Of a stretch of DNA of 24,429 nt, positions 255-22,949 are shown in pieces. Numbering within the stretch: position 1 is the stretch's first letter; every line of letters starts with the position of its first letter. The translations under genes and the position numbers were made by a program. The notes beneath the pieces were generated by a model, which had not been told where the DNA came from, did not search any database, and saw only the letters and a program-made list of their open reading frames with translations. The stretch is from Halocafeteria seosinensis (Eukaryota > Sar > Bigyra > Bicosoecida), in assembly GCA_001687465.1 (NCBI GenBank), contig LVLI01001972.1:1-24429 (forward strand), given 5' to 3'.

Positions 255-640
255 ACTTTGTAGGTAGTGTATCTCCCGGGCGGTTTCAGCATTTCGGACA
301 ATAATGTATGCTGCTCAAGCTAATGGAGTTACTCTCTGGCCCTATTCACCTCCTGGACCACTCACTGCATTAATATGATTGCCGGTTTGGTCTGCTGCAC
401 TGTACTGGCATCTACCGCATATTTTGTACGTCCCTGTCTCGATACTTACTCTACCAGTTGATTCAATGTATTTCTCATTTCATTCTCTTCGGCTCTTTAT
501 ATCTGATGTTACTATGGTAATTGGGCTTCCTGCTTCTACCATCTGACTCTTCGGCCGCATCCTCATCCGGTTGGACCTGCCACGAGGTGGCATGCGAAGC
601 GGATATTCGAGTCTGTTATGGAATGCGGCTAGTTTATTCT
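255..640 (-). pseudogene. Decayed last exon of a 7TM-CC gene
   Basis: Read on the minus strand, this segment aligns base by base with the coiled-coil exon of the 7TM-CC gene at 18121-19966. Shared blocks include AATGAGAAATACATTGAATC against AATGCGCAATGCATTGAATC, CAAAATATGCGG against GAAAATATGCGG, and TGTCCGAAATGCTGAAACC at the tail. The frame is broken by several stops and indels, so no protein can be read. No membrane-helix exons are found next to it; gene A begins its own 3' end at 814. It resembles the tail of the right-hand copy more than that of its neighbour A. I take it as the remnant of a fourth family member. The boundaries are approximate. Confidence 0.7.
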
Positions 641-813
641 AGAGTCCCGTCTTCCCAGATTGGTCGAAATATGTAGACTATTACCGTACCGCCTGTAACT
701 ACTCAGCAGGTTGACACTGTCACCTTGACAGCAACCTAGGAAACACCACACGCTTCGTGTCTAGCCTGAAGATTCTGCATGCATGCTGAGTTCTGCACCA
801 TACTAAAGAAGAG

Positions 814-2476
814 CTACTGCGGATCGACTATCAGAGACAGTTCGTTGATTTCATCCCCATTGCTAAGCACATGACTCTTTACATTGTCTACTCTTTGCAG
901 TACCTTATTCTCGTGTTGCTGTAAACTAGCCTGCAACGTCTCACGCGTTTGTCCCCCTTCCGATTGAACGACACGCTTCATTTCTTGTACCTCTTGAGAA
1001 AATTGCCTCAATGCTTCGTTGAATTCTTGAACAGAGGGATCTTGGCCATTTTCTTCGTCTGTTCGTTCCCCTGTTTCGTGAGCATTGATCGGTGCAGCAG
1101 TCGAATTCATAAGCCGTAAGATTTGAGAAATGTGGGTGGTCAAATGTCTTCTTTTTCCGTGGATGCTGGCTGACACCTGCACACTACTTGGGCTATGTCT
1201 GCAAAACTTCCTCATAATCTGCAAGAACATGAAAGTGGTTACCGTGCTTCGAAACTCTAGCGATATGGGAATATACCCTACGCACCCGGAACACAAAGTA
1301 AGGATCGCGACTGTCATAAGACCCGTGTATCATCTCTGCTCTTGACCCCTCTCCCTCCAATGGTGAAAGAAGCCAGTAGAAGACAACTGCCATGATGCCC
1401 ATTTCTATTCCATATTCAATGATAAGCAACCAATACTCGTTCTTAAACTCGTTCGCTATTCCTCCAATGATCTGATAAGCTGAGTAAGCGATTCTTAACA
1501 AGAGGAACCCCGCAAATGCGGTTGATATCCTCAATTGTCTGCTTCCGTATTCCGAAGGGCTCAGAGTGAAGGCAAAGTTTGGCATTACTTCGGCTTCAGC
1601 AGTGCTCGTAATTGGCCCATCCTGATTTTCTCTTTGCGCTCCGTTAGATTCAGCCATATTCAAACTACCACTAACCTGTTCAAAATATGTCGTGATTACA
1701 GTTTGGATGAACGTCACTGAGTAGACAATGATCAAGAAGATTTGCTCCGCTTTATGACGCTTTACACCATTTTCGAATACATGATATAGAACTCCCGTCA
1801 TTGCAGTATAAGCTAAAGATATTAGGAGTATCCAGGAGAACACATAACGTCCCAGGCGATCAATTCTCGTTGCAGCGCTCTCGCTTCTATTTAGCTTACA
1901 AACCTTCCGGGTAAACTCAGAGAATGGAAAGTTTCGCGAATAGTTGTCCCCATTCTGAATACCGTCTGTGCCCTCGTTTAGCGAATGGTATACTTCTTGT
2001 TCACTTCCTGATTCCCTTCTTCGTGGAGTTTCTCTGGCGACGACGCCTCTTCGGACCTTTTGTGAAGAGAACAAACCATCAATCAGGGAGGGTATCCAGT
2101 GACAAACATGTAATCGTACCCTACGTACCAGTACCTCAAAGCTCAAAAAATTGCGTATTTGTGCTCCACTTTTCGCGATAATCGAAACGACAAACATGAG
2201 GTCCCCAACGTCGAAGAGGAAGAACGGTAAGATCGAGTTTTGATCATTCTGAGCATATCGGGCCTCTCCGACACCGATGAGCGAGCAGAGCATCCTGACA
2301 AAGATGCTTCCGAGTAGTAGCACGAGATATCGAAAACGGTGTGAGAGGGACTCGGTATCGAACTTGGCTGACATGAGCCATAGCACCACGGTGAGCAGGA
2401 TCCCGTACGCGATGCCGATGAGGCCCAGCGTAGCTTCTGTTTTGCTATACGCTAACTGGTCGACGGTGCGCTCCAT
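814..2476 (-). CDS. 7TM-CC gene A: seven-helix membrane protein with coiled-coil tail
   Basis: Three exons, complement(join(814..1218,1286..2056,2129..2476)), giving 507 residues. Exon 1 carries predicted helices at about residues 16-36, 50-69 and 82-101. Exon 2 carries helices at about 187-209, 217-241, 293-315 and 323-346, then the motif HGSYDSRDPYF. Exon 3 (374-507) begins RKFC, has a basic patch, then a coiled coil of about 435-490. Introns are 72 bases (GTACGT...AAG) and 67 bases (GTGCGT...CAG). The first has a length divisible by three and no stop, so an unspliced reading hides it; the paralogue at 18121-19966 shows it, since both exon 1s are exactly 348 bases. I chose the ATG at 2476 because MERTVDQLAYSK matches the paralogue's MEPATDRISYTK; an in-frame ATG at 2551 exists. 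The family is not one I recognise. A receptor or transporter role is possible. Gene CR1 lies directly upstream. Confidence 0.85.
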
Positions 2477-3208
2477 TTTCGCCTGCTTTGCTGGTGCGTT
2501 CGTTTGAGACGGAAGAAGCGAGTAATGAAATGGGTCTATACGAGAGGACAACCAGCAGCCAGGGCGGAGATGGGTAGTATTGGATACTACCGGTATGCGA
2601 TCTTGACAAGGGCAGTTCCCGTTCCAGTGTTTGGTCGGGTACTACCTCTTCCAGACTTGATGTTGGTGTTGGTGACAGCAATCCACAAAACATGGGTAGA
2701 TATACTTAAAAGAAGCGTGATGTGAGGTATTGTATGGACACAGAACAACAAGTGGGCTGCGATCGCCGGTCGGCCCGAAGTCGCAACCACAGAGGCTCTC
2801 CGAGCTTAAAGAAGGAGCAAAACATCACCACACAGCGAATCACCAACATGGGGGGTGCTGCTATTACTTACCAAGCGAATGAGTGAAGTGTTTGATTTTG
2901 CAGCCAAGGAGGGGTAGTCCAACTGAGAGGCAAACAACTGTGCTACAAGTGCATCGTGTGTTTGTGTTTGGTATTGCTCCTGCCGGAAGACGTGTCTGCT
3001 ACGGCCTACGCTAAGCTGTTTGAGGGGTGAACCCTACCCGGAACCGGTCCAGCATCTTGTCATGTTGTTCTCTCTTCAATTGTCATGACTAGTCGTAAAC
3101 AGTAAACTTATCCAAATCATGGTATGGAGGTGCTCTGAGCAAGGGGGGACCCAACCGGACTTCATCGGGAAGCTACTACAGAGACAGTTAGCAACATTGC
3201 CCGTGCTC
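2477..3208 (-). promoter_or_regulatory. Intergenic region upstream of 7TM-CC gene A
   Basis: No gene is seen. The part from about 2745 to 2960 matches the upstream regions of the other 7TM-CC genes, including the blocks CACCACACAGCGAATCACC and GCTACAAGTGC (2942-2952). A palindrome TGCGATCGC lies at about 2758, with a further TCGCA half-site about 20 bases on. This probably holds the promoter of gene A and the 3' flank of CR1. No TATA box was identified with confidence. Confidence 0.45.
2942..2952 (-). promoter_or_regulatory. GCTACAA core upstream of gene A
   Basis: One of six copies of a GCTACAA(A/G)T(T/G)C-like core that lies upstream of each 7TM-CC gene or where such a gene would be expected. 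Here it reads GCTACAAGTGC, about 465 bases before the start codon. Conservation amid diverged sequence is the only evidence for function. Confidence 0.35.
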
Positions 3209-4924
3209 TCAGCAACAAAGCTCGTCCAAATCGAACCCCGCTTGTTGCTTCTGGCGTTGCGCAAATTGCGCAAGAGTCTCGGGACATGCTCCTCGGTCTT
3301 CAGCTTGATGCCCTGCTGCTTCAGGTCGCTCTCCACCGACATCCTCCTCACCATCAAGATGAAGTGGGTGATCCTGCAGACGGCAGGGCGGGGAATCGGT
3401 GTCTTCATCGGCTATTGCCGCGGCAGTTCCGGGTAGAGTGACCTCAGCGGTCGGTGGTAATTCTGGAGCATCGTTCCATCCAAATTGTACGAGCGTGTGT
3501 CGGTGCCGACGCAGTCTCCTCCAATGGTCATATGCCTCTTCCACGTAATATTGGAGAGTCTGGAATCGAGTTCAAGACGTCTTCGGTTTTTCACATCAAT
3601 CCCTAAGAATGCATCCACATACCTGACCGTTGATGGATATGCAAGTACGATACTGCTTGGCCATCTCTCCCGTATTGGGATTATCTACCACTTTGAGCAG
3701 CTCATCATAGAGTGTCTTGAGTTTTCCCATATAGGTCCGGAAATTCCTGTTTGCGCGTTCGAAAACAGCCGTGTCTTGTGGGCTGGCTTCCAATCTATCG
3801 AGAGCCCTACAAGATGTCCGATGGGCTCCAGCTACGCTCTTAGCTGGCCTATAAAAATTCAAATCAAACTGGTTCTTTTGCATGACAAGGTAGAGCACCT
3901 GTGCGGGAACGTGATGTTCCTCAACTTCCTTTAGGCGATTATCTAGGCTATTTTGCCCTATGTACAAACCCATCAACTGTTGAACAATATTCTCTTTACC
4001 GTGAAATTCTTTCGTAAAACCGTCTCGATATTTCTCCAAAAAGCTCTGAGGGGCAAGCATCCCTTTTTCCCTTTTACTACCGCAAGGGCAGAGATCATTG
4101 GTTCCATGGTTGTGGTTCGTCATCACTCGACCGTTGGAATTAACAGGCGACAAGGATATAGAACAACAACACATGCCAGAAGAGCGAGGACAGGCATACT
4201 TGAAGAAATACTTGGCCATTCCCAAGCAACCAGCTTTGTCGCAAAAGCTGGCGTATTTCGCCGAAGGCGCATTATTTTCGGATGTCCCTGAAGCGCTGCA
4301 CGTTTCTTGGTCCTCTGTATCACCGGTAGCGCTTGCACTATCATCGACCGGTCGCGGTTGCTTTTTCCCAGACAACTTCTGAGACAACTCGTTAGACTTA
4401 GGGGACTTCGCTTTTTTGCACTTTGGCTTTGTACAATCCGAACTTGAGGAAGCTGGCTGGCACATTAGGTGTTCACTAAATGCAGAGGAATCATTCAAGC
4501 ACTTCCCCTTTCTAAGGCACTCTCGTTTATTGCACACAAAGATATTCGCCGAATCCTTCGTCGTTCTGCAAACTTCGCACCTCTGCACAAACAATAAACA
4601 AAGCAACATGCATACTTGACTCAATATCGCCCAGGGGGGGGGGGGCCGACGAAAGCAGTTACCCATTTCTTACAAGTGCCTCTCCACGATCTGTATGATG
4701 GATAAAAGATACGATGGTGATGGTATCCACACGTTGAAGCACAAGTTCCCAGGATCCAATTGAGGCTTGAGCCACTTACCTGCCCATGTACGCTTCAAGA
4801 ATCCATTCTCCTGAAGGTTCTTCTCTATTTCTCGCAATTCTCCAACTCGTATGTGTAGATATTCCTCTTCTTCCCGGCGATAATCCTCCGGTAGGGCTTC
4901 CACCCCTCCATGTCGGTTTGCCAT
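3209..4924 (-). CDS. CR1: Cys/His-rich protein, long form
   Basis: Four exons, complement(join(3209..3559,3623..4582,4674..4690,4780..4924)), 490 residues. Exon 1 is charged and ends ENGFLKRTWA, matching the GF(V/I)ER end of other CR exon 1s. Exon 2 is the family's 17-base micro-exon. Exon 3 opens with RCEVCR, then VCNKREC, FCDKAGC, CCC, HNH and CPC, the family's Cys/His module. In this copy an 78-residue Ser/Lys-rich segment (85-162) interrupts the module. A helical region of about 230-360 follows. Exon 4 is reached by a 63-base GTATGT...CAG intron and is acidic and Gln-rich. Introns 1 and 2 are 89 and 91 bases. I prefer the ATG at 4924 by length comparison with paralogues; an in-frame ATG at 5059 would add 45 residues. 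Family and function are unknown; metal binding is likely from the Cys/His pattern. Without introns, the exon 3 frame would falsely appear to begin with a hydrophobic leader. Confidence 0.8.
4634..4645. repeat. Poly-G tract, 12 bases
   Basis: Twelve consecutive G on the plus strand, inside intron 2 of CR1. Length may be unstable or miscounted in the assembly; it does not affect the reading frame because it is intronic. Confidence 0.8.
4674..4690 (-). other. 17-base micro-exon of CR1
   Basis: Flanked by ACAG on one side and donor GTAAGA on the other. It supplies residues D-RGEAL between exon 1 (phase 1) and exon 3 (phase 0). All five CR genes have a 17-base exon here with identical phases. Confidence 0.8.
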
Positions 4925-5619
4925 TTTCTTTCCGATGTTTGTGTTTCCCGGATCCAAATAGCGAAATAGGGATCGGTTCGCGGATGGCGACTCGTTCGCG
5001 CAGAATTCGAAAGGCAAATTTGGAGATCGCCACCCCGTAAGTGCCTCTTTTGCTGACAAAATATCAATACGCCAATAGCACTACTTTCTGAAAAAATCTG
5101 CTGCAGGTAGGTATCGTGAGAACAACACTCTGATCGCAGCCTTTTTGCGACCAACCGCTACCCATGAACACCGAGGGTAGTGGTCCAGTACTACCAGGTA
5201 GTGGAGTTATTTCCGCTAAGAGCTCCCATATGCTTCAGCAATAAATACATTATCAGAAGTAAACAACGATGTATACCTAAGTACCTCTATTGCAGTCGAG
5301 TAGCGGACAGGTGCTCGAGGACATCCCGGAACGAAGCAACGGGCAGTGGCACAAGTGGAAGAGCGTCTGATGTACAAGCAGTTTGTTACGCGCCCACTTT
5401 AAAGCCCTATATTGATCTTGCTATGTAGCTTTAGTTAGGTCATGATGCTGAAAAGAAAGACAGACTCATCTACCCAACATCTTGCGGTACATGACTTGGG
5501 AGTGTGTCCTATTGCCGTGACGCACCCAAGCTGACTGCTCAGAAACCCGATGCAATGTGTCCGACAGTTGCCTTACGCTGCTTCCTTATACTTGGTAATC
5601 CGATTAGAGATGCTGGGCC
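4925..5619 (-). promoter_or_regulatory. Upstream region of CR1
   Basis: No gene is supported. The frame of CR1 exon 1 stays open up to 5059, but those residues have no counterpart in paralogues. A dyad of the family type lies at 5134-5150. The remainder up to the decayed pseudogene tail shows only short unsupported frames. Confidence 0.4.
5134..5150. promoter_or_regulatory. TCGCA/TGCGA dyad upstream of CR1
   Basis: Arms TCGCA and TGCGA separated by seven bases, 210 bases before the CR1 start codon. The same arms with shorter spacers occur upstream of CR2 and 7TM-CC gene D and near the 3' ends of CR3 and CR5. It may be a binding site for a dimeric regulator. Confidence 0.4.
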
Positions 5620-6685
5620 TGGAAACTATTAATAGAATCACAAAACGAGTGGTTTCGGTTATACGTGTTCGGAATATATTTCTTCTCGCTCATCTCATTC
5701 GGGCCGATACAAGCATTGTGCTTACTGTGCTTACTACGCGCGCAAGCAAAACCTACTTGTGAGCTGCGGTAGCAAACCAATGATTCGCGATGTACGTTAC
5801 CTAGGCTAAGTCCTCGAGGTGAAACCTACGTACCCGAAATACAAAGTACGGATCACGCCAATCACACGCTCCATGAATCAGTGGCGTTTTATCTACTGCA
5901 TATCCTTTTCCCTCCGTATCCGCAGGAGCAAAGAGCAAACAGGATACTACACTGTGAGCATAGCCACCTCTACCCCACACTCAACGACGAGTAACTGGTA
6001 CTCGTCCTCAAATCCATGATCTACCCCTTCCTCAATCCGGTATACTGCACATATAATTTTCGACGGGAGCAAGGTGCTAAAATGCTGAGATATATACTTC
6101 TGCCTGCTTCCGTACTGAGAGGGACTGAGACCGAAGGTGTACTGTGGAGTCCCTCCATTATTAAAGTTACCAACAGCATTGACGACTTGTCGCTCATCGT
6201 TTCCGACTCTGGCCAGGTCATCTTCACTCAGGCTACCACTAGCCTCGTCGACATACGTCGTCAGAGCAGAAACAAGAATAGTAAACGCGTATGTAGTGAT
6301 CAGGAAAATCTGTTCCACTCTGTGGTGTTTCACGCTGTGCTCGAAGTATACATATAGTACGGTAGTCACAATAGCGAACGCCATGGACATTGCTATCACG
6401 CAAGTGGACACGTAGTCTCCCACGGACTCGACGATGTTTGCAGTTCGATGAACGTTACCAGATCCTAGTATTCTTTGCATACAAGAAGGAAACGGCAGAT
6501 GAATCGAATAGACTTCTACATCACGGTCAGCGTCATTTCTCTGGTTGGGAAGTTGGTAGAACCCAACATTATACGCCAGCTGTGGAGAGCATCAACCTCA
6601 GGACGACGATCGCCAGAACCGAGTAGACCTGACCAACGGATCCCAGAGTGCCCTGATTCATGGTGTACGACATTCTGTCGCCCAT
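5620..6685 (-). pseudogene. 7TM-CC pseudogene C
   Basis: A broken member of the seven-helix family. The start (ATG at 6685) reads GDRMSYT, then TLGSVGQVYSV, matching the start of gene D, and stops after about 38 codons. About 80 codons covering helices 2 and 3 are deleted; the sequence resumes in another frame with GFYQLPNQRN against GFHELPNERN in D. A longer open stretch (to 5947) covers helices 4-7. After a stop and a frameshift, HGACDWRDPYFVFR is still readable, followed by a GTACGT donor at 5833 and a CAG acceptor at 5764 (70-base intron). The coiled-coil exon, beginning LTSRFC, carries stops. Both end boundaries are approximate. Its splice sites are preserved although its frame is not, so loss is fairly recent. 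CR2 lies upstream, as CR1 lies upstream of A. Confidence 0.85.
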
Positions 6686-6927
6686 GGGATCCAATCTACT
6701 CAGTGATGTGGTACACTACTTGTACTTGTATCTACGCCCACATTCGTGAATTGCGGGGTCAATGCGCTCGGAGCGAGGCGAGTTGTCGGAATTGTTGTTC
6801 GGCCTTCGCCTGCATCAAATGAAGAGCATCGCCTTACAGCAAATCACAAAGCTTGGGCTCTGGTTAGCACACTGCTAAACTTTTTTAATTTTGGAATCAG
6901 TAGCTTCCCCAGTTACGGTGGCGAGGA

Positions 6928-6940
6928 TCGCAGCATGCAT
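6928..6940. promoter_or_regulatory. Degenerate TCGCA/TGCGA dyad upstream of pseudogene C
   Basis: TCGCAGCATGCAT, with the right arm altered relative to the intact dyad at the matching place upstream of gene D. Its decay fits the pseudogene state of C. Confidence 0.35.
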
Positions 6941-6990
6941 CTAATCTAGGGGATCCGAGAGTTCACGGAGAATAAGAAGCAACCGACCGT

Positions 6991-7001
6991 GCTACAAATT
7001 C
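6991..7001 (-). promoter_or_regulatory. GCTACAAATTC core upstream of pseudogene C
   Basis: Identical to the 11-base core upstream of gene D (20247-20257), about 305 bases before the pseudogene start. Confidence 0.4.
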
Positions 7002-7579
7002 GTCGTCAAGGTTTTTTTTTTAATTACCCAGATCCTTTGGAAGTAGTTTTCAGTTTATAAGATTACTACGTAGTACCTATAGCATTGCTTGTTCTGCGGA
7101 AGTGCTATAGGGAAACGCGTTCATTTCTTCTCGCTGAAGGATTTCTGTACCTGCATTCCCTTAGATTCTCATGACGCTTTCCAGTTCTCTTCGTTTCTCA
7201 TCCTGTCGATCGAGGCCGGATCACTTTGGCCCTGGTAACTGGTTGTCAGTTTAGTTAGATTTCCCACCCGTCCCACCGACCACACAGAAAGCAGGAACAG
7301 CGGGCCCGTCGCTGCTTAACACCGGCGCATACTTTTAAAACTCACGTCACGCCAGGTCTCCAACAATATATCGAAACGAAAAGTCCGATCGGATTGTTTT
7401 TGTCGGGGCGCGTCGAAAGAGCAAAGCATCAGCACATAGCACGCCACAATACTGTGCATTATCTCGGTACCGACCTCAGCAATGGCTTTTAAAGCATTTG
7501 ATTTAGCATTTAGCGCTCACAGCCGAGGGCATCGTCATGGATTCAAGATTCTGATGGAGAATCCTTGGATACCAACCGT

Positions 7580-7590
7580 GCTTCAAATTC
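7580..7590 (-). promoter_or_regulatory. Diverged GCTACAA core beyond the 3' end of CR2
   Basis: Reads GCTTCAAATTC, one mismatch from the core upstream of 7TM-CC genes. It lies 51 bases past the CR2 stop codon, and there is no 7TM-CC gene immediately served by it. Confidence 0.3.
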
Positions 7591-7640
7591 AAGTGTATCT
7601 CTATTTACTTTTCGTGCTTTCCTCTTTTCGTTAACGTTTT

Positions 7641-8750
7641 CTACTGGAAAGACAAGTCACAGCCGCCTTGAAGCGGCTCGCCTTGGAGATCGAGCACTTC
7701 CATGCGGCAATCGTCTTCGTCGGACGACACAGCATCATCTGGGAACGGGTCAACAACTTTACACATTGGTTCACGCGGTGAATGCTGTCGATCGTCAAGA
7801 CCCTCCAATTGTTCCATATAGAGCGCGTCTGATAGGTCATCAGATAATGTTTTGAAGCGGCGTCCATCCTCGGTCACTTCGTATTGGCCCATGTTTCGGT
7901 CCTCTGGGGAGTGAGCTTGACCATCTGCTTCTTCAAGTTGGTAGCTTCCTTCTTGGGGTCCGTCGTCTGCTCCTTGAGCTACTCGATCGTCGACCCGTGT
8001 TAAACCAAACTCTCTTCGATGCCGCAGAAAGGTGTCAGGTGAAATCAGATACTCCCCTTCTATGTGACCGTGCTTGACCCCGTGGTTGTGCGCTTCCCTC
8101 GTCGGACCGCAGGGACAAGGTTCCGAAAGATCATGATTGTGCTTCATTTCCAGTGTTTCCGTGCTTCTTCCAGGGAATACGCAGCAACACAGGCGAGATG
8201 TCTTGGGGCAGCTATATCCGAAGAAATCCCTAGCCACCAACAGGCACCCCGGCGTGTCACAAATGCTTACATGCCTCATTTTAGGATTACGAAAACATTC
8301 TGGCTGACACTCGTCTTTGTTGCAAACAAAAAGTGACCGTTGTTTCTCCTCTGCTCGCGAAGGCTTTGTTCTACAAACGTGGCATCTCTGCAGCAACCAA
8401 CTAAAGAACAACACAATTTGAATAACTATAGTGGAACAACGCATCCAAAGGAATACGTCTTACGAGTCCATCCTCGGGGGCTGCACAAAAATAGTATATA
8501 CATATAGACGGTATGAACATCTCTGCATCAGAATCAGTTGAACCTGCCAGCGGTTGGTCGCAATGACCCGCAGGCCGCGAGGCCAGGGCGTAGCATACAG
8601 TATCGCCTACTGACTGGGATTTCACGTACCTCCTACTGTACGTTCTACGAAGCCAACCGAGAGCATGTCCTTGCGAATTCTTCTCAAATCACCCCGATTC
8701 ATGCCTCTTTGGTCCTCTTCTTGACGGCGTTCCCGATACTCGTCACTCAT
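7641..8750 (-). CDS. CR2: Cys/His-rich protein with acidic tail
   Basis: Three exons, complement(join(7641..8387,8464..8480,8630..8750)), 294 residues. Exon 1 (40 codons plus one base) is charged (EEDQRGMNRGDLRRI) and ends GFVERTVG. The micro-exon adds A-PEDGL. Exon 3 begins RCHVCR and carries C-x2-C, VCNKDECQPECF, a C-x4-C pair, YSCP, CCC, HNHD and PCPCG, then EAHN and EGEYLISPDTFLRH, motifs shared with CR3 and CR5. The remainder is rich in Asp, Glu and Ser. Introns are 149 and 76 bases. No signal peptide is encoded by the spliced message; the hydrophobic stretch just before RCHVC in the genomic frame is the pyrimidine tract of intron 2. Metal binding is likely; the role is unknown. The region including its 5' half was duplicated to make CR3. 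Pseudogene C lies downstream. Confidence 0.85.
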
Positions 8751-9098
8751 CGTTCAACAAGGGAGGTAAGTTGATCGTTTCGGAGAGTATCTGGACCAAA
8801 CGAATCCGCGCAATACCAATAAAGGAATAGTGCGTGTGTGTGTTCTGCTTTTCTTTTCTTACAGTCCACAACTTTTAGTAATCAATACTTTTCCAAAACC
8901 ATCTTATCGTTTGTAAGACGAACAACACAACAATTCGTTTCCGCAGCGGTGGGGGACCCTGAGTGGCTCAGGGTGGGCCATTTCTTCAACTGCATTCAGC
9001 ATAGCAGATGCAGAACGGAGTTCCGATGGTTCAACAGCGACGTATCCGTCATTAACAAGCTGGTCGTACCGTACCGTGCGAAACCTGGGTCGAATGTT
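7929..9098. repeat. Segmental duplication, copy 1 (CR2)
   Basis: About 1.17 kb nearly identical to 11351-12523, in the same orientation. It covers the Cys/His module, both introns, exon 1 and about 350 bases upstream of the start codon. Differences are scattered substitutions and a few small indels, including a short TG repeat difference near 8830. Confidence 0.9.
8464..8480 (-). other. 17-base micro-exon of CR2
   Basis: Bounded by TGCAG and GTAAGA. With one base from exon 1 it encodes A-PEDGL and joins to RCHVC in frame. The CR3 copy is identical and CR4 differs in its first two bases. Confidence 0.85.
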
Positions 9099-9158
9099 TG
9101 AATCTGTGGCTGTGTCGGAGAACGTTCGACCGACACAGCGTGCAGTACACTCTCCTGA

Positions 9159-9170
9159 TCGCAGCTGCGA
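9159..9170. promoter_or_regulatory. TCGCAGCTGCGA palindrome upstream of CR2
   Basis: A perfect 12-base palindrome, arms TCGCA and TGCGA with a two-base spacer, 409 bases before the CR2 start codon. It lies just outside the segment duplicated with CR3, so CR3 lacks it. Confidence 0.4.
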
Positions 9171-11152
9171 CCCAATGAAACGGGCAGAGTTTTACCGCCG
9201 CTGCATCAACCAGCTGTCGACGGATTTCGGCAGCCACACAATTGCACCACAAATCACATACAAAAACTTACTAATTTCTCGAGGCGTCGAGAGGCCCATC
9301 GTTAACACTGTCAGTGACCGGTAGGGCCTCCGCACGGGGACCATGCCTGGCCTTTCAAGTCTTCAACAGCACTTCCATTGGGCTTCAATGGAGTAAACTC
9401 ATCTTTGTTCAAGTATGCCGAGCCCGAAAGGCATCTATAGATCATTCTGTCAAATGCCGCACGGGTTATGTGAGTGTACCGGCTGCTTTTGTCGAAAACG
9501 TCATGTCGGTTGCAGTCGAGCTCTAGTAAGCTGGATCCAGGGGATCGTCAATTTATTCATACTGTAGATTGACACTGCTTTCGGCCGTTGGTCATTGTCG
9601 CCGCGAAGTCGCTCGTTTCTTATCAGTGTGGGTGGGTGAGCGAGACTGCTGGCTCGGGGAAGACGATAGCACCGTGCTCGCTTCAGGGCATCCGACACGA
9701 GATCTACCCCATATTTGCGCGTCAGCCACTGTCTCTATCCAAAGCCCTTAGTGTTGTTGAACTTCGGTTCTTATTTGCCTTAGAATTGATTCCCGCTATT
9801 CCCTAGGCCAGCAGTGCCGTTCCTGCTTCTCTTCCCTTCTGGCTTCACAGTGCAATGTGGTCTTCGTTTCTCACCAGTTTGGCATTGTTCCGAAGTAAGC
9901 GTAGGGGAAACTGCCGACCCGACGGGGCTATACCTATAACGCTGTCATGGCACTATCCGTTGGCCGGTACCGGCAAGCTCACTTCAGCGAAGGCTGCTGA
10001 TGCAATGGGGCTACCACGCTGAGTTTAAGCTCTCGCTTCATGGTACCAGTATTCCGTACAATGTTTTAATGTCTGAATTGCTTCACCAGACATTGACTTG
10101 ATTTCAGAAACTCAGTATCGTCGAAAGTTGGTCCTTTTGTTTGTTTCCCTTAGAATTGATCCCGGAATTCTCTGGTCGCCGTTGAGTCATACTTCTCTTT
10201 CCCTTTAGAAGTGAAATCTCGTTGTCGGTTATGTAGATAATGCATACAAAGTGCTAGTCTTTATAGGCATCCATCCCAACACGCGTGCTCACAGGAAGTA
10301 CAGGCGAATTAGGGGGTATCGAAGGAAACTACAACCCGAGGCAGTCAAAACTTCAGCGCTAGTGAACTCACTGTCGGTACGCTCTAACCGACATTTGGCG
10401 TATCAAGGAACACGCCACATAGGATTTACTACTGATCATTTCCTGAAGTACCGCTCTCGGTTCATAATCGGACTATCTCCCCGGCAGTAGTTGAGACGCA
10501 CTTGTTGGCATCCTATGCTCACCTCCCTTTCCCGAGCGTATCACATAAGGTGCTGTTTCCTGTATAATTCGATTGTCCTTTCCGTTTTTCCACAGCCATG
10601 CGTGGCCCCTAGGGTAGCACAACCATTGTGTCGTTCCATATCATCGTTCCAGGGCAAGATTTGGCGGGGGTTGCTTCAGACACGGAAGACTTCTTCACTT
10701 CACGAATAGATCGAAATCATCTCTTGTTGGCTCCCTTGTTAAGCACAGACTCATATCTCAAGATGACATTTACCAGCAGCGGCGCTTCGGTATATCCGTA
10801 CTTGTATCTTTGTTTCCGCATGCATCTTCGGAGCCAGGGAGACCATTCCAAGCAGCGTTTCAAAGGCAAGAAAGAAGCACTGCAAGAAAACGAAGCAATC
10901 AAATTACACAACGATTATTTTAGCTCCAATGCAACATGCACATGCTGAATGGTATCTAACGGAAACGACCGTTATACAGGATTGAGTTCCTCACATTCCT
11001 TCCTGTACGGAGAGAGCCAAGATTTTGGGATGGTTGACCGCACAACAGGTGCTGAGGTATCTATATTTCGCAATCACACTAAGGTATCCAAATCGAATCA
11101 TTCGATTTTACAAATACACTGTATCAGTGGTAGCACACGCGAGGAGGACAGG

Positions 11153-11165
11153 TCGCAACGTGCGA
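11153..11165. promoter_or_regulatory. TCGCA/TGCGA dyad beyond the 3' end of CR3
   Basis: TCGCAACGTGCGA, with arms as in the dyad upstream of gene D. No 7TM-CC gene follows; this looks like the orphaned promoter of a lost partner. Confidence 0.4.
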
Positions 11166-11210
11166 CGCGTTCTGGTTCCCGGACCGCTCAGGAATCGAGC
11201 CAACAACAGC

Positions 11211-11221
11211 GCTACAAATTC
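11211..11221 (-). promoter_or_regulatory. GCTACAAATTC core beyond the 3' end of CR3
   Basis: Identical to the cores upstream of gene D and pseudogene C, 216 bases past the CR3 stop. It supports loss of a 7TM-CC partner here. Confidence 0.4.
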
Positions 11222-11350
11222 ATTTGTATTCATACGTAAATTCAACGTTAGTGTATTGGACGATGAGTAGAAGTAGCAAATTCTTGATGTTACTGGAGTT
11301 CATCGTCTAAGTACATGCCACGGGGATTACATTGTCAGAGAGTGTGTGCT

Positions 11351-12523: not shown

Positions 12524-12983
12524 GATTGAATACGTCGTACGAGGGATCACTTGAAGTTTCCAGTACAATGCTTCACGCAGCATCTGCGTGCTTCCTTACT
12601 GTAGCGGACTAATCGGTGTGTATTTTTTGCGACAGTATCGAACAAAATTGCATTGGATCTGTGATCGACTCTGTTACAAACCACTGTGGGCTGTGCGCAT
12701 GTGTACACCTGCTCGACGTTGCAACTGGCACTATTCCAAAGTCAGCATCGTGATTCTTAACCAGGGGAGCTCTGAGCTCAGCTCTCTCTTCATCACCGGG
12801 CGTTTGGTATGATTGAGCGAAGTGGTGTTGCTTTATGGGAGTAGTGCCAGTTTTTGAAGTACAGTATTTCGGAATCAAAAGCAATCAACTACACTACGTG
12901 CATACTAGTACAGTATTCGCAGTTGCTTATCGTTTCATTTGAAAAAAGCAGTGTCAGCCTGTAAAATGCTAAACAGAAGCTCT
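12524..12983. other. Gap between CR4 and CR3, no gene seen
   Basis: Beyond the duplicated segment. No convincing frame, repeat or RNA gene was recognised. It must contain the 3' end of CR4 transcripts. Confidence 0.4.
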
Positions 12984-14488
12984 TCAAGACCACCACAGCC
13001 AGGAGCATTGCTGGAGGTCAGACGGCGCGTCGTTAAGAATATCGTCTGCTGGTGTAGTGCTGTCCTCCAGAGCCTTAACAGGGTCCAGCAAAGCAAAAGG
13101 CGTTACTTTAGCGTTATTGAGGTGTTGATCAGCTAAGACTTGGTCATCTCCTTCTGGGCTGTCGTAGTTACTTTCTTCAGCTGGGTGGTATGCGTCACCG
13201 ATGTCTCTTGCAAAAACGTCACAAGCTTGTTGGGATGACATAGGGAGTCCGCCACCTTGAACGTGAGCACGCACAGATGAGTCCTCTGCAAAAAACGCAA
13301 ACCCGTTAACACGTGGGGACGAAAGCGCGTCTTCATGATCATCGGGCAATGTGCCCAAGGGAAACCCCCAGGCTGGAACTTCTTCGTCAGTTGGCTCGGC
13401 TTGTTGATATGTCTTACCGAAGTCAACAGACACGCCTGAGTCTCTTGCAGCAACTCCCCAACTTTCTTGGGATGACACAGAGAGCCCGTCGTTTTGAGCA
13501 GCCATAGGTGAGTCCTCTGGAAACTCGTTTCCTCGCACGGATGAATAAACCGCGTCTTCATGATCGGGAAATAGTTCCATGGAAGAAGACCAAGCTGGTC
13601 CTTCAGCTTGCCCGAACGCTGGCTCAGCACGATACATGAGTTGATCGCCTCCTTCTGGAATTTCGTCTTTAGTTGTTTCGGCTTGTCGATATGCCACACC
13701 GGAGGCAGCAGACGTTTCGCGTTGTAGCGTGGCTTGATTCGCTACCAAAACCATATCTTGATCGTCTGAGAGTTGAGATTCTCGCGGCTCGCCACTTGCG
13801 TAAAGAGAGACTCTTTCGGTGCTTTGCGAAAACTGGTCAGGTGAACTCAGGTACGCCTCTTCTATGCGTCCTTTCTTCACTTCCGTATTGTGCGCTTCCC
13901 TTATTTTAGCACAGGGACAAGGTTCCGAAGGGTCATGGTTATGTTTCCGGTTTTGGTTTCTTCCAGGAAATACGCAGCAACATTTGCGAGATGTTTGTGG
14001 GCAGGCATATTGGTAAAAGTCCCTGGCCGTCAACAAGCATCGGCGTTTGTCACAAAAACTAACATGCTTCCCAGGAATCTGGCGATGTTTTCTTTTATAG
14101 GATTCGCCGACATCGAAACACTTTGGTTGAGACTCTCTCTTGGTACAAACGCAAAGCTCCCGTTTATGCGCTTTCTTTGAAGAAGGATTAGTTCTGCAAA
14201 CGTGACATCTCTGCAGCAACCAAAGAAATAAAATACAGGTTAAATCACTATAGAGGAGCAACACATCCAGTTGAATACTTCTTACGAGTCCATCCTCGGG
14301 CACTGTGTGGGCAGAATCAGTATGCATGATTCCATTCCACAACCGCTTGAAGCTGTAAGGGAGTGCTTACCTCCAAGTGTACGCCTTTCGAAGCCGAAAG
14401 CTACCAGTTCATATGTAATGTTTTCTTCTTCATCACCGTTTTCTGGTCGGTCTTCTTGCAAACAGTTCTCCTCGTTCTCTGCAGCCAT
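12984..14488 (-). CDS. CR4: Cys/His-rich protein with repeat-bearing tail
   Basis: Three exons, complement(join(12984..14210,14286..14302,14371..14488)), 453 residues. Exon 1 is acidic (MAAENEEN..., ending GFERRTLG); the micro-exon gives V-PEDGL; exon 3 opens RCHVCR at residue 46. The module (46-160) keeps CVC, QPKCF, FCDKRRC, YACP, CCC, HNHD and PCPC, but one Cys of the NKxECQP motif is Ser here (RESQPKCF). The tail from about 215 holds a repeat of some 70-75 residues, units about 245-317 and 314-388, sharing QAE, HEDA, EDS, SSQ and ARD; partial units flank these. Introns are 68 and 75 bases. Intron 2 has a length divisible by three and no stop, and would encode a hydrophobic 25-residue stretch if retained. 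Function unknown. Confidence 0.82.
14286..14302 (-). other. 17-base micro-exon of CR4
   Basis: Bounded by CACAG and GTAAGA. Its last fifteen bases are identical to those of CR2 and CR3 although the surrounding introns have diverged. Confidence 0.85.
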
Positions 14489-14964
14489 GGTTCAAGAACG
14501 CGAGTCAAGTGAGAAAGGCGACCTGTTATTTTGTACCGCTTCTATATCAAAGGAGTTGGTGCAAAATTCGTATGTAGGTGCGGTACGCGTTCTACATCTC
14601 GATTCACGTAGCCCAATACGTATAACATGCCAATATTTCTCCAACCACCTGTTCTTTTATTGATAGAAGAACACCCATGCTTCTGCAGCAGTGCACTTGT
14701 TAGGGTTGCACTTCCCAATGCCAGGGTCAGCACTTCTTCGACTGCACTCAACATAACACACGCAGAACGAACTCTAAGTGGTACAGAGCAGATGCATCCA
14801 TCTATAACAAGATCCTCCTGCCACAACACGTGAACTGCGTGCCGCGTACACTGTACTTGTACATGTCGGAGAATTCGGGTGAGCCAGCAGTCTAATGACG
14901 AGAAGGAATCGACCAAGGGGACACACTAGGGGTACCACAAGTTCGCTGCGGAACGTTTCGGGGT

Positions 14965-14989
14965 TTTTCGCTCCCATGGTTTTCCCCTG
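14965..14989. repeat. 25-base direct repeat, copy 1
   Basis: TTTTCGCTCCCATGG followed by TTTTCCCCTG, identical to 15200-15224, about 500 bases upstream of CR4. Its centre is the palindrome CCATGG. Confidence 0.85.
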
Positions 14990-15199
14990 TGGGGGGTGTC
15001 CCCGGAACTTGGATAACGTCAAGGTGCGACGTGGAACTGCGGGCTGAAACCGCGGACTAAAACGGCGCGTTTCCCATGCTTGCACACACAATAGACGTAT
15101 TTCGGCAGAAATCAGCCACTTACTCATACAAAAACAAGTGTGGGGCTGGCGGGCCGACTCGGAGCCTTCACGACGTGGGTACTATCGCATACCTGGGGG

Positions 15200-15224
15200 T
15201 TTTCGCTCCCATGGTTTTCCCCTG
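15200..15224. repeat. 25-base direct repeat, copy 2
   Basis: An exact copy of 14965-14989, 235 bases away in the same orientation. The sequences around the two copies are not alike, so this is more than an ordinary tandem duplication remnant. A short inverted repeat with ACCGGT lies just beyond this copy. Confidence 0.85.
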
Positions 15225-16578
15225 ACCGGTCCCAGGAAGTCAACTACCTACCGGTAGTTCAACATGGGTCTATTTTTCTTTTGTGGAGCAAAGCCCACTC
15301 TCACGAGTTAGCAAGATGTATTCGATAGGTGGCAGAGCCTATCGCGTTGTACAAACAGGTTGTATGCGGTGTATCACGCTCGACGTCCCTGCCCTAGGGC
15401 CTCTTGAGCTCCGGGAAGTTGAATTCATCATTGGTTCATGAGCGTCGCTGATTTTGACAGTAGTTACAGTGCGACCTTGTTTGCCTGTGTTTGGCTTTGC
15501 CACTATGAAGATGTGTGCGTGCTGGAATCGCTGGCCAAACGGGGCTTCATACAGCGCGATCCACAGGTACTGTACCTGGTAAGTGTTAGTCCCTGCATCG
15601 CGTTCCATAAATTGCGTACATCTGTCCTTGTTTCACTACAGTCACTAATTGCGTCCTTCATCGGTAATGCCGGGATTTCTTGGATCTCGCTTCTTGTTTC
15701 GCTAAGGATTGATTCCGGCATTCAATTATCATTCATCAGCCATTCTTCTCGTTCCCCTCGTGCAACGTGAGAGCCCGTGGTCGGCTACGTGCACAGCGAA
15801 CGCAACCTGGTAGTATCTATGATCCCGGTCCTGAGACGCATGTTCGTTCCGTGGAAGCGTACCAGAGTTACAGAGTAAGCCTAGGAAACTAACCCGAAGC
15901 AGTCTAACCAACCATGCTCTTGCTCCGGTACGCTCTATCCGGCATTACGGGAACTCCATTCCTTCAAGTACAACTGTACTGGTCTGGGCCCACTACATAT
16001 ATTGGGCACAATTGCTGTTCTTGGCTTTGTCCACACTCGCACATTCATTCTCTATCGCCCATCACTAATGTGGATTCCATATCCTTGTTGGAGACTTGGC
16101 TGCGAGCGATTCAGATACGGAAGACTTTTTCACTTCACGAGCGAGTCCGAATCATTCTTTCGTTGGCTACAGTAGTTCATGAAGCCCACAGAATTGCCAT
16201 ATCATAGAGCATAGGGTCTACTGTACGAAGCGGACAACAGACAGAGAATCTACATCTTCAGATCCCCAAAACATGGCTGACCCATCAGCCGGTATGTAAG
16301 CGTCATAAAACTATGGAACGTATTTCCGACGGTCCAACTGTTTCATTCATCATTGAAACCATCCATACACGCTGTGTACAACTACATTGTGCGTTAGTCT
16401 AACAGAAAATACTTAACTTTGGATTCCAAACGTGCGTGGAGCGAAAGACGGGACACCCAAAACCTTCCCCGTGACGCTTGAATGATATTTCTATTGCGTA
16501 TGCAATGGGGTACTGGCGCATTTGACAATCATATCATTCGATTTTACATATTTACGGGGGAATCGGTCTGAGGGTAGG

Positions 16579-16591
16579 TCGCAGCGTGCGA
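16579..16591. promoter_or_regulatory. TCGCA/TGCGA dyad beyond the 3' end of CR5
   Basis: TCGCAGCGTGCGA, identical to the dyad upstream of gene D. It is 105 bases past the CR5 stop and has no 7TM-CC gene behind it. Confidence 0.4.
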
Positions 16592-16625
16592 CGCGTTCCG
16601 AGGAATCAAAAACAAAAACAACTGT

Positions 16626-16636
16626 GCTACAACTCC
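16626..16636 (-). promoter_or_regulatory. Diverged GCTACAA core beyond the 3' end of CR5
   Basis: Reads GCTACAACTCC. The first seven bases and the spacing to the dyad match the other copies. Confidence 0.3.
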
Positions 16637-16695
16637 CATGTGAGTTCTTGTGTTGATGTCTTTTCAATGAACGTGCATACTGGAGAAGGTTGGGC

Positions 16696-17645
16696 TCAGT
16701 GGTATTGTTCGGCAGCTCGTGCTAGCGTCATCAAGCCTTGATCGGGACCTGGGTCCCACAAAGGATCGTGACACACAGACCCCCGTAGTTGGCCGTAAGG
16801 TGCTAAGCACTGGACTTCATCGTCTGCTTGCATAACTTGATCTTCTACTTCGTCAGTTTGGTGCTTTGGATCTGGGGCTTCGTCGTCCCCTTCTGGAGCT
16901 CGATGGCCTGCTTCTTGGTCTTCCTCTTTTGCCACAGCGTAATTAACGCCTCTTCCGGGTGTTCGCAAGAACTTGTCAGGTGAAATGAGATACGTCCCTT
17001 CTTTTTTTCCTTCCTTTATCTTTCTATTATGCGCTTCCCTTGTTATACCGCAAGGACAGGGGACCGAAGGGTCATGATTGTGTCGCCTTTCTTCGCTGCT
17101 TCCATGGAACACGCAGCAGCACGATCGCGATGTGAGTGGGCAGGCATAGCCATAGAAATACTTGGCCGCCATTAGGCAACCGGGTTTGTCGCAAAAGCTC
17201 ACATGCCTTTCTTTAGGAGTATGGAAACACTGTGGCTGACACCTTGGTTTGCTACACACAAAGAGGGGTCTTCGCTTCTCTCGTTCAGATGTTGCCTTTT
17301 TCCTACAAACGTGGCATCTCTGCAGCAACCAAGCAAACAATTTGGGCCGCTATAGCAAACACACACATTCCATTGGATATGTCTTACGAGTCCATTGCCG
17401 GGGTCTGCACAGGTAGAGGAATCAACAATACTCCTATATTAGATAAAGTTGAACCTTCCAGCGGGGAATACTTAATCGGCTCTTCGTGGGTCAGCATGCA
17501 ATAACTCACCTCCTACTCGACGTTCTATGAAACCGTTCGCGTGCAGGGAAGTTGGAATTGTTTCCAACACACCACGGTCTATGCCTCGCTGGTCCTCTTC
17601 GCAATGGCGGTTCTTGGACGTATTAGTTACGTTATCAGCCGTCAT
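16696..17645 (-). CDS. CR5: Cys/His-rich protein, compact form
   Basis: Three exons, complement(join(16696..17319,17388..17404,17510..17645)), 258 residues. Exon 1 (45 codons plus one base) contains EEDQRGIDRG and ends GFIERRVG, like CR2. The micro-exon gives D-PGNGL. Exon 3 opens RCHVCR at residue 52 and carries the entire module: VCSKPRCQPQCF, FCDKPGC, YACP, CCC, HNHD, PCPCG, EAHN and YLISPDKFLR. The tail of about 100 residues is acidic with two further Cys. Introns are 105 (GTGAGT) and 68 bases. This copy is the cleanest statement of the family consensus. Gene D lies upstream in transcription order, not downstream, so CR5 seems to have lost its own partner. Function unknown; metal binding likely. 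Confidence 0.85.
17388..17404 (-). other. 17-base micro-exon of CR5
   Basis: Bounded by GTGCAG and GTAAGA. It differs from that of CR2 at four positions but keeps length, phases and the ATGGACTC end. Confidence 0.85.
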
Positions 17646-18120
17646 GGTTGAGGTTATGGGTGCGGGAGCGGACGCTACAGAAAGTATCCCTGTTTTTTCT
17701 TCTTTTCTCGATCTTTATAGTTCTTAAAATATCAACACTTCGTTCTTCAAGAAAGCGCATCCCAGGGTCAGCGACCCTGAAGCAGTGCTTCACGCTTCAA
17801 CCCCACTGGCTCTTACCGGAGAGAGGGGCTATTTGGTTTTCAGTCGGTACCCGAAAAACTCGGTAAAGACCAAAATGTCAACCTGTTTAACTCCACGAGC
17901 TTGATTTTAACCGACCACCCCAACTCATCACGGTGTGAGGAGCGACATTTTGGAGCCGACTTCTTCCGTTCGAGAGTTCCAAAGCAACAAATTCTACAGT
18001 TAGCACAGAAATCCTTTATGCAAGGAGAAGTGTACTCAAACTAGGCGGTACAGGTCCTCGAAAGTTACCGTTCCTTTTGGCGAAAGTATCTCGGAACTCG
18101 GGTGCCAGTAGTTCAATACG
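17646..18120 (-). promoter_or_regulatory. Region between gene D and CR5
   Basis: Contains the CR5 promoter and the 3' flank of gene D. A short segment near 17760 (CCCAGGGTCAGCGACCCTGA) includes an inverted repeat and resembles the GGGTCAGCAC block upstream of CR4. The family dyad was not found here. No gene is seen. Confidence 0.4.
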
Positions 18121-19966
18121 TTATCGGTAACTTATCGCTCGCGGGCCGCCTCTGTTCATTCCGCCGTTTCCCACCGATTGTATGTGTACCTCCCTGAGGG
18201 TTTCAGCATTTCGGACAAGATACTGCTCCAAATAATTGAAGTCTCCTCTGGCCCCATTCATCTCCTGGAGCACTTCATTCATACCATTGCGGATTTGGTC
18301 CTCTTGAGTTTGTAGCCGCTGAAGTTCTGCTTGCAGCTGCCGCATATTTTCTGTCGCTTCGTTATTCTGCCGCGCGACCTGTTCCGCCAACTGATTCAAT
18401 GCATTGCGCATTCCATTCCCTTCCTCTCTTACTATCCGTGTCAAGTGGTTAGGAATCCTGTCCAGCGCGTTACGCAGTTGTCTATTTCTAGTATCTGCTT
18501 CGGGTTCTGGCTCTTCTTCCGTTTCATCTTCCGGGTGGACCTGCTGAGACTCAATGGGGCCAGCCGTGGTACTCATCAGATGAAGGATTTGGGTTATGTG
18601 TGTTCTGAATGTCCTCCTTATCCCACGGATTCGTGCGGATATCTCCACAGTGCTCGACCCGGTTGCGCAAAACTTCCTTGTGAGCTGCGGCAAACATCAA
18701 CGACGAGAGGCTACAGTGCATTTTTCCTACAGGGCACATACACCTACGTAGTACGTACTCGGAATATGAAGTAAGGGTCCCGTCTGTCGTACGATCCATG
18801 TATCACTTGTTTCCCTTCTTTGAGCGTTTCCTCTTCGTCCTCCATCGGCGAAAGGAGCAAGTAGAACACAAGTGTAAGAATAGCCATTTTCACGCCATAT
18901 TCTATAATGAGCAACCAGTACTCATTCTTAAACTCATTTGCTATTTCTCCTTTTATCTGGTAAACTGAATAACCAATTCTCAACAAGAGAAATAAACCAA
19001 AAGCCCAAGAGACATATTTCTGCCTCTTTTCATACTGCGAGGGACTTAAACTGAAGGCGTGCTGTGGAACCTGTTCATCATCAAAGTTATTTGGGGCATT
19101 AATGCCCTGTCTCCCATGGTTGCTGATCTCCCTAGGGTCAACCATACTCAAGCTGCCACTAGTTTTTTCGGCATACGTTGTGAAAGCGGATACGAGAAAC
19201 GTGAGTGAGTATACAATAATCAGAAAAATTTGCTCCGCGCTATGCCGCTTCACGCCATGCTCGAAGTATCGATACAATACTGCACTCATGACAGTATATA
19301 ACACAGATATAGCTAGCACGCAACTGAAGACGTAGCCCCCGATGGAATCGACGATATTCGCAGTGCGGCGGGCATTGTCAACTCCTAGTATTTTTTGGAG
19401 GAACCTCGGGTATGGCAGATTTCTTAAATAGGAGTCACCTTCATAGGTAGCGATATTTCTCTCGTTGGGAAGCTCATGGAATCCAAAATCATCCTGTCTG
19501 CGAGCTTCCCTGTAAACAATACCTTCCTTTACCTGCCGTAGCACAGTGAGGCAGAACAGGTGTCCCTACGTGTGAAAAACATGATGGAATCAACGAGGTC
19601 TTATACGGCCATACATACCAACATCTCGAAGCTCAGAAAGTTGCGTATCTGAGCTCCACTCTTCGCAATGATCGAAACTACAAACATCAGGTCTCCAACG
19701 TCGAACAGGAAGAACGGTAGGATCGAATTTGGATCATTCTGAGCATACTGTGCTTCCCCCACTCCTATAAACGAACAAAGCATTCGGACAAACATCGTGC
19801 CTATTAATAGCACGAGATAACGGAATCTATGGGACAATGACTCGGTGTCAAATTTAGAGAGCATCCCTCTCAAGACAATGGTGAGCAGGAAGCCATAGAC
19901 CACGCCAATGCCTCCCAGAGTGGCCTCCGTCTTGGTATACGATATCCGATCGGTTGCGGGTTCCAT
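18121..19966 (-). CDS. 7TM-CC gene D: seven-helix membrane protein with coiled-coil tail
   Basis: Three exons, complement(join(18121..18684,18759..19532,19619..19966)), 561 residues. Helices fall at about 16-36, 50-69 and 82-101 (exon 1), then 183-205, 216-236, 292-310 and 319-344 (exon 2). HGSYDRRDPYF precedes the exon 2/3 junction. Exon 3 (375-561) begins LTRKFC and has an acidic stretch (424-438) and a Gln/Glu/Asn-rich coiled coil of about 440-535. Introns are 86 bases (GTATGT...CAG) and 74 bases (GTACGT...CAG); the first contains a stop, which makes the splice necessary and reveals the equivalent hidden intron in gene A. Exon 1 is exactly as long as in A, exon 2 one codon longer. Long conserved stretches such as FDTESLSHRFRYLVLL suggest constraint on the membrane part, while the tail diverges. 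Family not recognised. Confidence 0.87.
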
Positions 19967-20188
19967 TTTACTGCAACTCCATTCACCACTTCTAAAATCA
20001 AGTGCTGTCCGACGGAGATGACGACTTTTTGTAGTGTGTAAAATCCCCAGATTTGTCTTTCTGGTTTCGGCCGTATCGAATGAGCAGCACCACCATACAG
20101 CAAATCACAAAGTTTGGGGAGCTATTGGATACTGACTAAACTAAGCAAGCTATCGTCTGTGAGACATTTAATGCAGGCTGGAGGAGGA

Positions 20189-20201
20189 TCGCAGCGTGCG
20201 A
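20189..20201. promoter_or_regulatory. TCGCA/TGCGA dyad upstream of gene D
   Basis: TCGCAGCGTGCGA, a dyad with a three-base spacer, 223 bases before the start codon of D. It is the intact form of the degenerate site upstream of pseudogene C. Confidence 0.45.
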
Positions 20202-20246
20202 CCTGGGGATCCGAGAATTCGCACAGAATCAGACGCAACCACCCGA

Positions 20247-20257
20247 GCTACAAATTC
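20247..20257 (-). promoter_or_regulatory. GCTACAAATTC core upstream of gene D
   Basis: About 281 bases before the start codon, 46 bases from the dyad. The same pair in the same order is found near pseudogene C and beyond CR3 and CR5. Confidence 0.4.
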
Positions 20258-20742
20258 GTATGTACCGATGTGTGTTATATTTGATTTTTATACTTTTCGA
20301 CTTTCCATGACTGTGCATACTGTACTTTGTTTATAGAGAAAGGGGGATATCTACCAATACTATATATTCGTATAACTCTAAGCAACTGCTCTACGCTGAC
20401 GAGGGGCGATCCGGAAAGGGTCTAGTTCCTGTGTGTATTGTATCCGGCGCATGTACACTATGCAGGATGTGTATGGGTTACATGACTAGCAACACTGGTG
20501 CTGCTAGCAGGACGTACCACCTATAATGGGCCACGGTAAGCTGAGGGAAATCAAGCAAACTGGCGTACCTCCAAATATTTATGAAGTGCTATAACATCTA
20601 AAATTGGGGGCTATACAGCAAGCGCATATTATACAACTTCATGCACTTCAAGACACAACAACTTGGAGATACTGCTTGCACAACAGCAAGCTAATCGACC
20701 GGTAGACTTTGGGATATAGATGTGGCTCGTTGGTTGGAAGCT

Positions 20743-22940: not shown

Positions 22941-22949
22941 AGTGGGGGA

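Follow-up and report, generated by a model that had tools for sequence, protein, structure and literature searches.

A CR–7TM array on contig LVLI01001972.1

Contig LVLI01001972.1 of the Halocafeteria seosinensis assembly GCA_001687465.1 (24,429 nucleotides in all; hereafter the window, or C574) carries a tandem array of genes from two families, a Cys-rich zinc-type protein family (CR) and a seven-helix membrane protein family (7TM). Duplication of a CR–7TM unit with partner loss is well supported. The full explanation that we favor, in which the unit would also work as a membrane sensor with a CR partner, has in our judgment an even chance of being right as a whole. The explanation rests on six features: both 7TM loci of the genome, on C574 and on contig C479, adjoin CR genes on one strand with CR first; the stretches that follow CR2, CR3, and CR5 are similar to sequence upstream of 7TM genes; 7TM intron places and CR intron phases are conserved; the 7TM membrane part and the CR domain are under purifying constraint; coiled-coil-like tails occur in 7TM1, 7TM2, and 7TMa and in the CR proteins of contigs C479 and C523; and the C479 CR and two C479 7TM genes are present in one transcriptome.

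The array with its relics spans 267-20259, and every CR and 7TM exon and relic lies on the minus strand, in agreement with the preliminary description of this DNA. The range of 814..20280 given there covers a real array, but a further 7TM last-exon relic (267-580) lies outside it. The array holds two intact 7TM genes, a truncated 7TM copy, the last-exon relic, four intact CR genes, and the CR3 pseudogene. As described earlier, a 7TM copy stands behind two of the Cys-rich genes: the truncated copy behind CR2 and 7TM1 behind CR1. In transcription order, the genes and relics (all on the minus strand) are as follows.

18121..19966: 7TM2; exons 19966-19619, 19532-18759, 18684-18121; 561 residues
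16696..17645: CR5; exons 17645-17510, 17404-17388, 17319-16696; 258 residues
12984..14488: CR4; exons 14488-14371, 14302-14286, 14210-12984; 453 residues
11347..12179 (about): CR3 pseudogene; start codon lost, in-frame stop
7641..8750: CR2; exons 8750-8630, 8480-8464, 8387-7641; 294 residues
5654..6694: truncated 7TM copy; tblastn matches 6694-6584, 6570-5950, 5953-5654; without the part for residues 38-130
3209..4924: CR1; exons 4924-4780, 4690-4674, 4582-3623, 3559-3209 (last exon predicted only); 490 residues
814..2476: 7TM1; exons 2476-2129, 2056-1286, 1218-814; 507 residues; seven hydrophobic segments and a coiled-coil-like tail
267..580: remnant of the last exon of a 7TM2-type gene, on the downstream side of 7TM1; matches the DNA of 18184-18544 in three collinear blocks

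We searched the genome (30.6 Mb, 605 contigs, with spliceosomal introns; C574, C479, C523, C508, C48, C196, and C19 are contig labels) and the EukProt transcript set named GECG01. The genome searches scored the best candidates only, and the locus counts are lower bounds; the transcript search is word-based, with ~8000 candidates scored per run. GECG01 proteins are exact or near-exact matches to genes of this genome, indicating that the source of the transcriptome is this organism or one very close to it. GECG01 is probably the Halocafeteria seosinensis transcriptome.

Transcripts support four 7TM genes and one CR gene. The model of 7TM1 and transcript protein P0004 are identical across all 507 residues. 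For 7TM2, model and transcript protein P0002 are identical over 484 residues, a stretch spanning both introns; the eight residues that follow in the transcript differ. By eye, these final eight residues can be read from the opposite strand of the 7TM2 gene (window ~18214-18240); the divergent end is probably a fold-back artefact of transcript assembly. The model of the C479 CR gene agrees with P0003 at 487 of 490 residues. No transcript of the window CR genes turned up among the best GECG01 candidates, and neither family has a relative outside GECG01 in searches of the same scope. Two transcript searches each missed transcripts listed by the other, only part of the candidates being scored; therefore, missing window CR transcripts and missing relatives elsewhere are weak evidence of absence.

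Intron places are kept across the 7TM genes. In CR1, CR2, CR4, CR5, and the lone C523 gene, exon 1 ends in phase 1, a 17-base micro-exon follows, and the main exon starts in phase 0. The micro-exons lie at 4690-4674 (CR1), 8480-8464 (CR2), 14302-14286 (CR4), and 17404-17388 (CR5), and at L028 7708-7724 in the C523 gene. The CR3 pseudogene, which lies in a 3.4 kb tandem duplicate of the CR2 region (~92% alike), retains this layout, micro-exon included (11901-11885). In the C479 CR gene, the phases are unchanged but exon 2 is longer. An assembly artefact or a viral insertion might be suspected, given that the contig is short with a repeat-rich right end, and given the 74 virophage capsid genes counted for this species in an excerpt of PMC10120064. 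However, the copies are strongly divergent, transcripts agree with the gene models, introns stand at conserved places, and viral contigs yield no confirmed relative of 7TM1, the CR2 domain, the C479 CR, or 7TMa. We regard this alternative as very improbable.

A second locus and the age of the linkage

Searches of the genome with 7TM1, 7TMb, and 7TMc find 7TM genes on C574 and C479 only. On C479, a CR gene and then 7TMa, 7TMb, and 7TMc lie on one strand, with 716 bases between the CR stop and the first 7TM start. The same CR-then-7TM order at both loci supports the two-gene unit, duplicated with partner loss, that had been proposed for the window. The history is less simple than proposed, as the CR family extends beyond the pair: searches with the CR4, C523, and C48 proteins place CR genes on at least five contigs, C574, C479, C523, C508, and C48, and a further match on C196 is weak (E 0.17, 16% identity). 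The expectation that the families co-occur and are adjacent elsewhere in the genome thus holds from one side: two of two 7TM loci are CR-linked, but only two of the five CR contigs hold 7TM.

In the 7TM tree, the window copies are split from C479 a, b, and c (support 99), and the truncated copy groups with 7TM2 (support 96). The CR tree groups CR2 to CR5 (support 93) and splits C479, C508, and C48 from the window genes and C523 (support 87); another split sets all four non-window genes off from the window genes (support 63). Both trees are unrooted. C523 is 51% identical to CR1 and 53% to CR2, and C479 is 38% identical to each. If the pair predates the split between C479 and C574, its 7TM was lost on the C523 branch.

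Both the CR domain and the 7TM membrane part are under purifying constraint. The ratio of nonsynonymous to synonymous change (dN/dS) between 7TM1 and 7TM2 is 0.14 for the membrane part and 0.21 for the whole gene, and that of the CR domain is 0.23-0.32 in all five pairs compared (CR2/CR3, CR2/CR5, CR2/CR4, CR4/CR5, and CR1/CR2); the values are rough, synonymous change being high in every pair except CR2/CR3. Outside the domain, CR is more variable, with dN/dS of 0.14-0.87 for the N-terminal part and 0.34, 0.52, and 1.28 for the tails, two further tail values being undefined by saturation.

Spacer sequence and partner loss

We took the 200 bases that follow each CR stop and aligned them to three references, the sequences upstream of 7TM2, the truncated copy, and 7TM1, with 2000 random 200-base segments of this genome as controls per reference. 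For the three references in this order, the score is reached by 0, 0, and 196 controls with the CR2 spacer, by 0, 10, and 4 with the CR3 spacer, and by 0, 148, and 0 with the CR5 spacer. The CR4 spacer is unlike 7TM upstream sequence (347, 768, and 345 controls). The claim that 7TM upstream sequence lies past CR2, CR3, and CR5 is therefore upheld in that each spacer beats 2000 of 2000 controls for at least one reference, and is qualified by one of seven negative-control stretches that passed as well. The relevant stretches (all on the minus strand) are listed below.

2932..2948: copy of the shared motif in the spacer from CR1 to 7TM1
6789..7003: upstream of the truncated 7TM copy, common with upstream of 7TM2 (79% over 81 and 77% over 69 bases)
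7570..7586: copy of the shared motif, after the CR2 stop
11151..11217: shared stretch behind CR3, with two blocks of the motif
16577..16632: shared stretch after the CR5 stop, with two blocks of the motif
20050..20259: upstream of 7TM2, common with upstream of the truncated copy, with short blocks common with the spacers

The shared motif, defined after the alignments were inspected, occurs seven times in the window, compared with 0.47 expected; none of 100 shuffles reaches seven. Six of the seven occurrences lie on the minus strand: five follow a CR stop, and the sixth is upstream of 7TM2. Two copies lie between CR2 and the truncated 7TM copy. Outside the window, the stretches read contain no exact copy of the motif and only two matches at two mismatches. 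When 250 bases from upstream of 7TM2 are used as a query, the only matches in this genome are the query itself and the region upstream of the truncated copy.

No coding 7TM relic is detected past CR3, CR4, or CR5 at E < 1 when 7TM1 and 7TM2 are the queries of translated searches. The statement that no 7TM gene remains past CR2, CR3, and CR5 is accordingly right for CR3 and CR5; behind CR2, a 7TM remnant follows after ~1 kb, accompanied by a second spacer copy of its own. In this truncated copy, the second-exon piece is open over 207 codons and the lower piece has two stops. The open piece and a dN/dS of 0.39 relative to 7TM2 suggest that the copy may have died late or may still be partially read. 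The relic at 267-580 matches with E-values of 3.5e-18, 8.9e-7, and 3.8e-5 and has stops in all three minus frames.

We propose a two-gene unit, a CR gene with a 7TM gene behind it, that predates the parting of the C574 and C479 clusters. On C574, the unit would have been copied several times in tandem. The 7TM partners behind CR3 and CR5 would have been lost, that behind CR2 would have left a remnant, and any CR partner ahead of 7TM2 would have been lost or cut off by repeats.

Predicted properties of the CR and 7TM proteins

All six CR models have a charged N-terminus and no 19-residue stretch with a mean hydropathy of at least 1.6, and hydropathy reveals no signal peptide or membrane helix in any of them. 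An alignment of eight CR proteins has 16 invariant columns, comprising 11 cysteines, two histidines, two prolines, and one serine; CR4 is without one additional cysteine found in most members. Such a cysteine/histidine pattern has the look of a zinc cluster and is unlike an extracellular disulfide domain. The CR domain may bind zinc, and the CR proteins look intracellular rather than like extracellular recognition domains. The preliminary description called the Cys-rich protein fast-changing and took its pairing with a membrane protein to suggest a recognition or signalling system. The constraint on the cysteine domain and its intracellular look weaken the recognition idea, and a secreted cysteine-rich ligand or a receptor ectodomain is not supported by the six models, which are without a signal peptide or membrane anchor.

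Seven hydrophobic segments are detected in 7TM1, 7TMa, and 7TMc, and six each in 7TM2 and in the 7TMb piece lacking the first exon. The charge pattern of these hydropathy-based models suggests an outside N-terminus, with a short N-terminus and a long presumed inner loop and tail. The tails of 7TM1, 7TM2, and 7TMa carry coiled-coil-like heptads, whose scores are reached by 4 of 300 shuffles for 7TM1 and by none of 300 for the other two. A coiled-coil-like stretch also follows the CR domain in the C479 CR (9 of 300) and the C523 CR (5 of 300), and is marginal in CR1 (27 of 300). The long CR tail is kept in genes with an intact downstream 7TM (CR1, C479) and missing in those without (CR2, CR4, CR5).

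On this basis, the 7TM protein would act as a membrane sensor, its N-terminus short and outside the cell, its tail long and inside. CR would be a soluble intracellular zinc-cluster partner that makes contact with this tail or with the complex to which the tail belongs; the contact could run through coiled coils in the older forms. Zinc binding, membrane topology, physical contact, and signalling of the pair are all inferred from the sequences.

Joint function or hitch-hiking

The families could instead have become neighbours once by chance, with tandem and segmental duplication carrying both and their products unrelated in function, an account to which we give somewhat less than an even chance. 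A randomly placed cluster would fall within 5 kb of some CR gene in ~0.2-0.3% of cases by our own arithmetic. Both clusters may, however, descend from one linkage, so this low figure argues for shared descent, not for function.

Several observations weigh against the duplicated unit as a working sensor pair. The C574 and C479 clusters may inherit a single chance linkage, as the two linked loci could come from one event. On three of the five CR contigs, CR stands alone: no 7TM match (E 0.05) is found around the C523, C508, and C48 genes in the stretches checked (the whole 17.3 kb of C523, 10 of 50 kb of C508, and 16 of 198 kb of C48). CR2, CR4, and CR5 keep open frames without a live 7TM partner and are without a coiled-coil-like tail (200, 236, and 300 of 300 shuffles reach the score), as is 7TMb (296 of 300). 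The C523 CR has a long tail though it has no 7TM neighbour; since, in addition, CR2, CR4, and CR5 are on one branch, the correlation between tail and neighbour is a single contrast. The spacer signal consists of short blocks, such as 14 identical bases between the 7TM2 upstream sequence and the CR5 spacer, and the negative-control stretch that beat all 2000 controls for one reference (upstream of CR4) did so through a 13-base exact match. AlphaFold2 models, from six sequences each, have a mean pLDDT of 46.6 for the CR5 domain (120 residues) and 40.9 for 7TM2, and support no structure or contact.

Hitch-hiking is harder to reconcile with a linkage that outlasted divergence to ~42% identity for the 7TM genes and ~38% for the CR domains, and with the failure of the genome searches to find a 7TM gene apart from CR. 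A joint function of CR and 7TM is therefore plausible, with chances about equal to those of hitch-hiking.

Comparison with known families

In Pfam scans of open reading frames, whole proteins, and domains, all matches are below the curated cut-offs. The lowest E-values are those of DAHL (5.5e-5) and Baculo_PEP_C (1.8e-4) for the 7TM2 coiled-coil-like tail and of WLS-like_TM (0.0061) for the 7TM2 first-exon frame. NCBIfam gives no match and PHROGs one (E 0.036). Among solved structures, the CR profile has two weak matches (E 0.43 and 2), and the 7TM profile and the CR domain have none. Prokaryote genome contigs contain no confirmed match for the CR2 domain, and the literature passages retrieved hold nothing on either family.

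Another possibility, which we consider unlikely, is that the 7TM genes are a sensing family by themselves and that CR is a separate family of zinc proteins, nuclear or binding nucleic acids and perhaps distantly related to zf-4CXXC_R1. The CR sequences are soluble and charged, which would suit it. The zf-4CXXC_R1 profile (presumably Pfam PF10497) is not listed for eight CR proteins and six domains up to E 10. This domain of CDCA7 and its relatives has eleven cysteines in the pattern CXXCX10CX4CX7CXXCX19CXXCX3CXCXXC, according to an excerpt of PMC10538959. CR shares with it a CxxC followed by C-x4-C, and CPxC-x3-C-x-C near the end; in the C508 protein, the first four cysteines and the CXXCX3CXC part are close, with CxxC-x11-C-x4-C and CxxCx3CCC as part of the CDCA7 spacing (same excerpt). 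However, the fifth and sixth CR cysteines form CX4C instead of CXXC, and CR adds an HxH...CPC end. The C508 protein departs likewise, with a middle CX4C and the final CXXC absent. The likeness in cysteine spacing is a lead that failed the profile test.

The 7TM proteins resemble G protein-coupled receptors in their seven hydrophobic segments, short N-terminus, and long presumed inner loop and tail. Against the Pfam receptor families (7tm, Frizzled, cAMP-receptor), one member of the six matches 7tm_3 (E 0.11) and there is no other match; unlike the receptors of the Frizzled and cAMP-receptor types, which are duplicated in Halocafeteria seosinensis according to an excerpt of PMC5447177, the 7TM proteins match neither family. 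The same excerpt counts 13 P2X genes in this species; we find P2X receptor matches on three contigs of the genome, one of six matches being above the cut-off. The THH1/TOM1/TOM3 profile is not listed for six 7TM members up to E 10, in a scan whose filters drop most weak matches. A possible likeness to THH1/TOM1/TOM3, compared by Pfam only, would lie in seven helices and a loosely similar third helix.

Fungal pheromone-receptor mating loci are paired receptor-partner arrays in which a 7TM gene likewise adjoins a gene of a second family. There, the partner is a secreted or small lipidated ligand, whereas CR is larger, of the intracellular zinc type, and without a signal peptide.

Both families are without an above-cut-off Pfam match or a relative outside one transcriptome, and 7TM is found only beside CR. 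More tentatively, and with the chances against it, the array could represent a lineage-specific two-part sensing system of bicosoecid flagellates, in which seven-helix sensors of a new family, each with an adjacently encoded intracellular zinc-cluster partner, diversified by tandem copying and partner loss. Duplicated receptor genes responding to salt are described for the halophilic flagellate Halocafeteria seosinensis (PMC5447177, excerpt). The array is a concrete, testable case of the possible origin of a new membrane-to-cell pathway in a little-studied protist branch.

Other features of the window

The sequences upstream of CR3 and CR4 are 74% alike over 92 bases (12394-12484 and 14722-14811), which is possibly a CR promoter region. 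Another 100 bases, ~0.6 kb past CR3 and CR5 (10634-10732 and 16075-16168), are 73% alike and match no 7TM or CR protein. The window has no Rfam match, tandem repeat, or tRNA. The right flank (20431-24429) is rich in repeats, and its pieces match many other contigs (best 40 of 434 candidates scored), for example C19 at 97% over 1.4 kb and C523, which also holds the lone CR gene, at 82% over 0.7 kb. It contains an inverted repeat of 58 bases (22423-22480 and 24133-24190).

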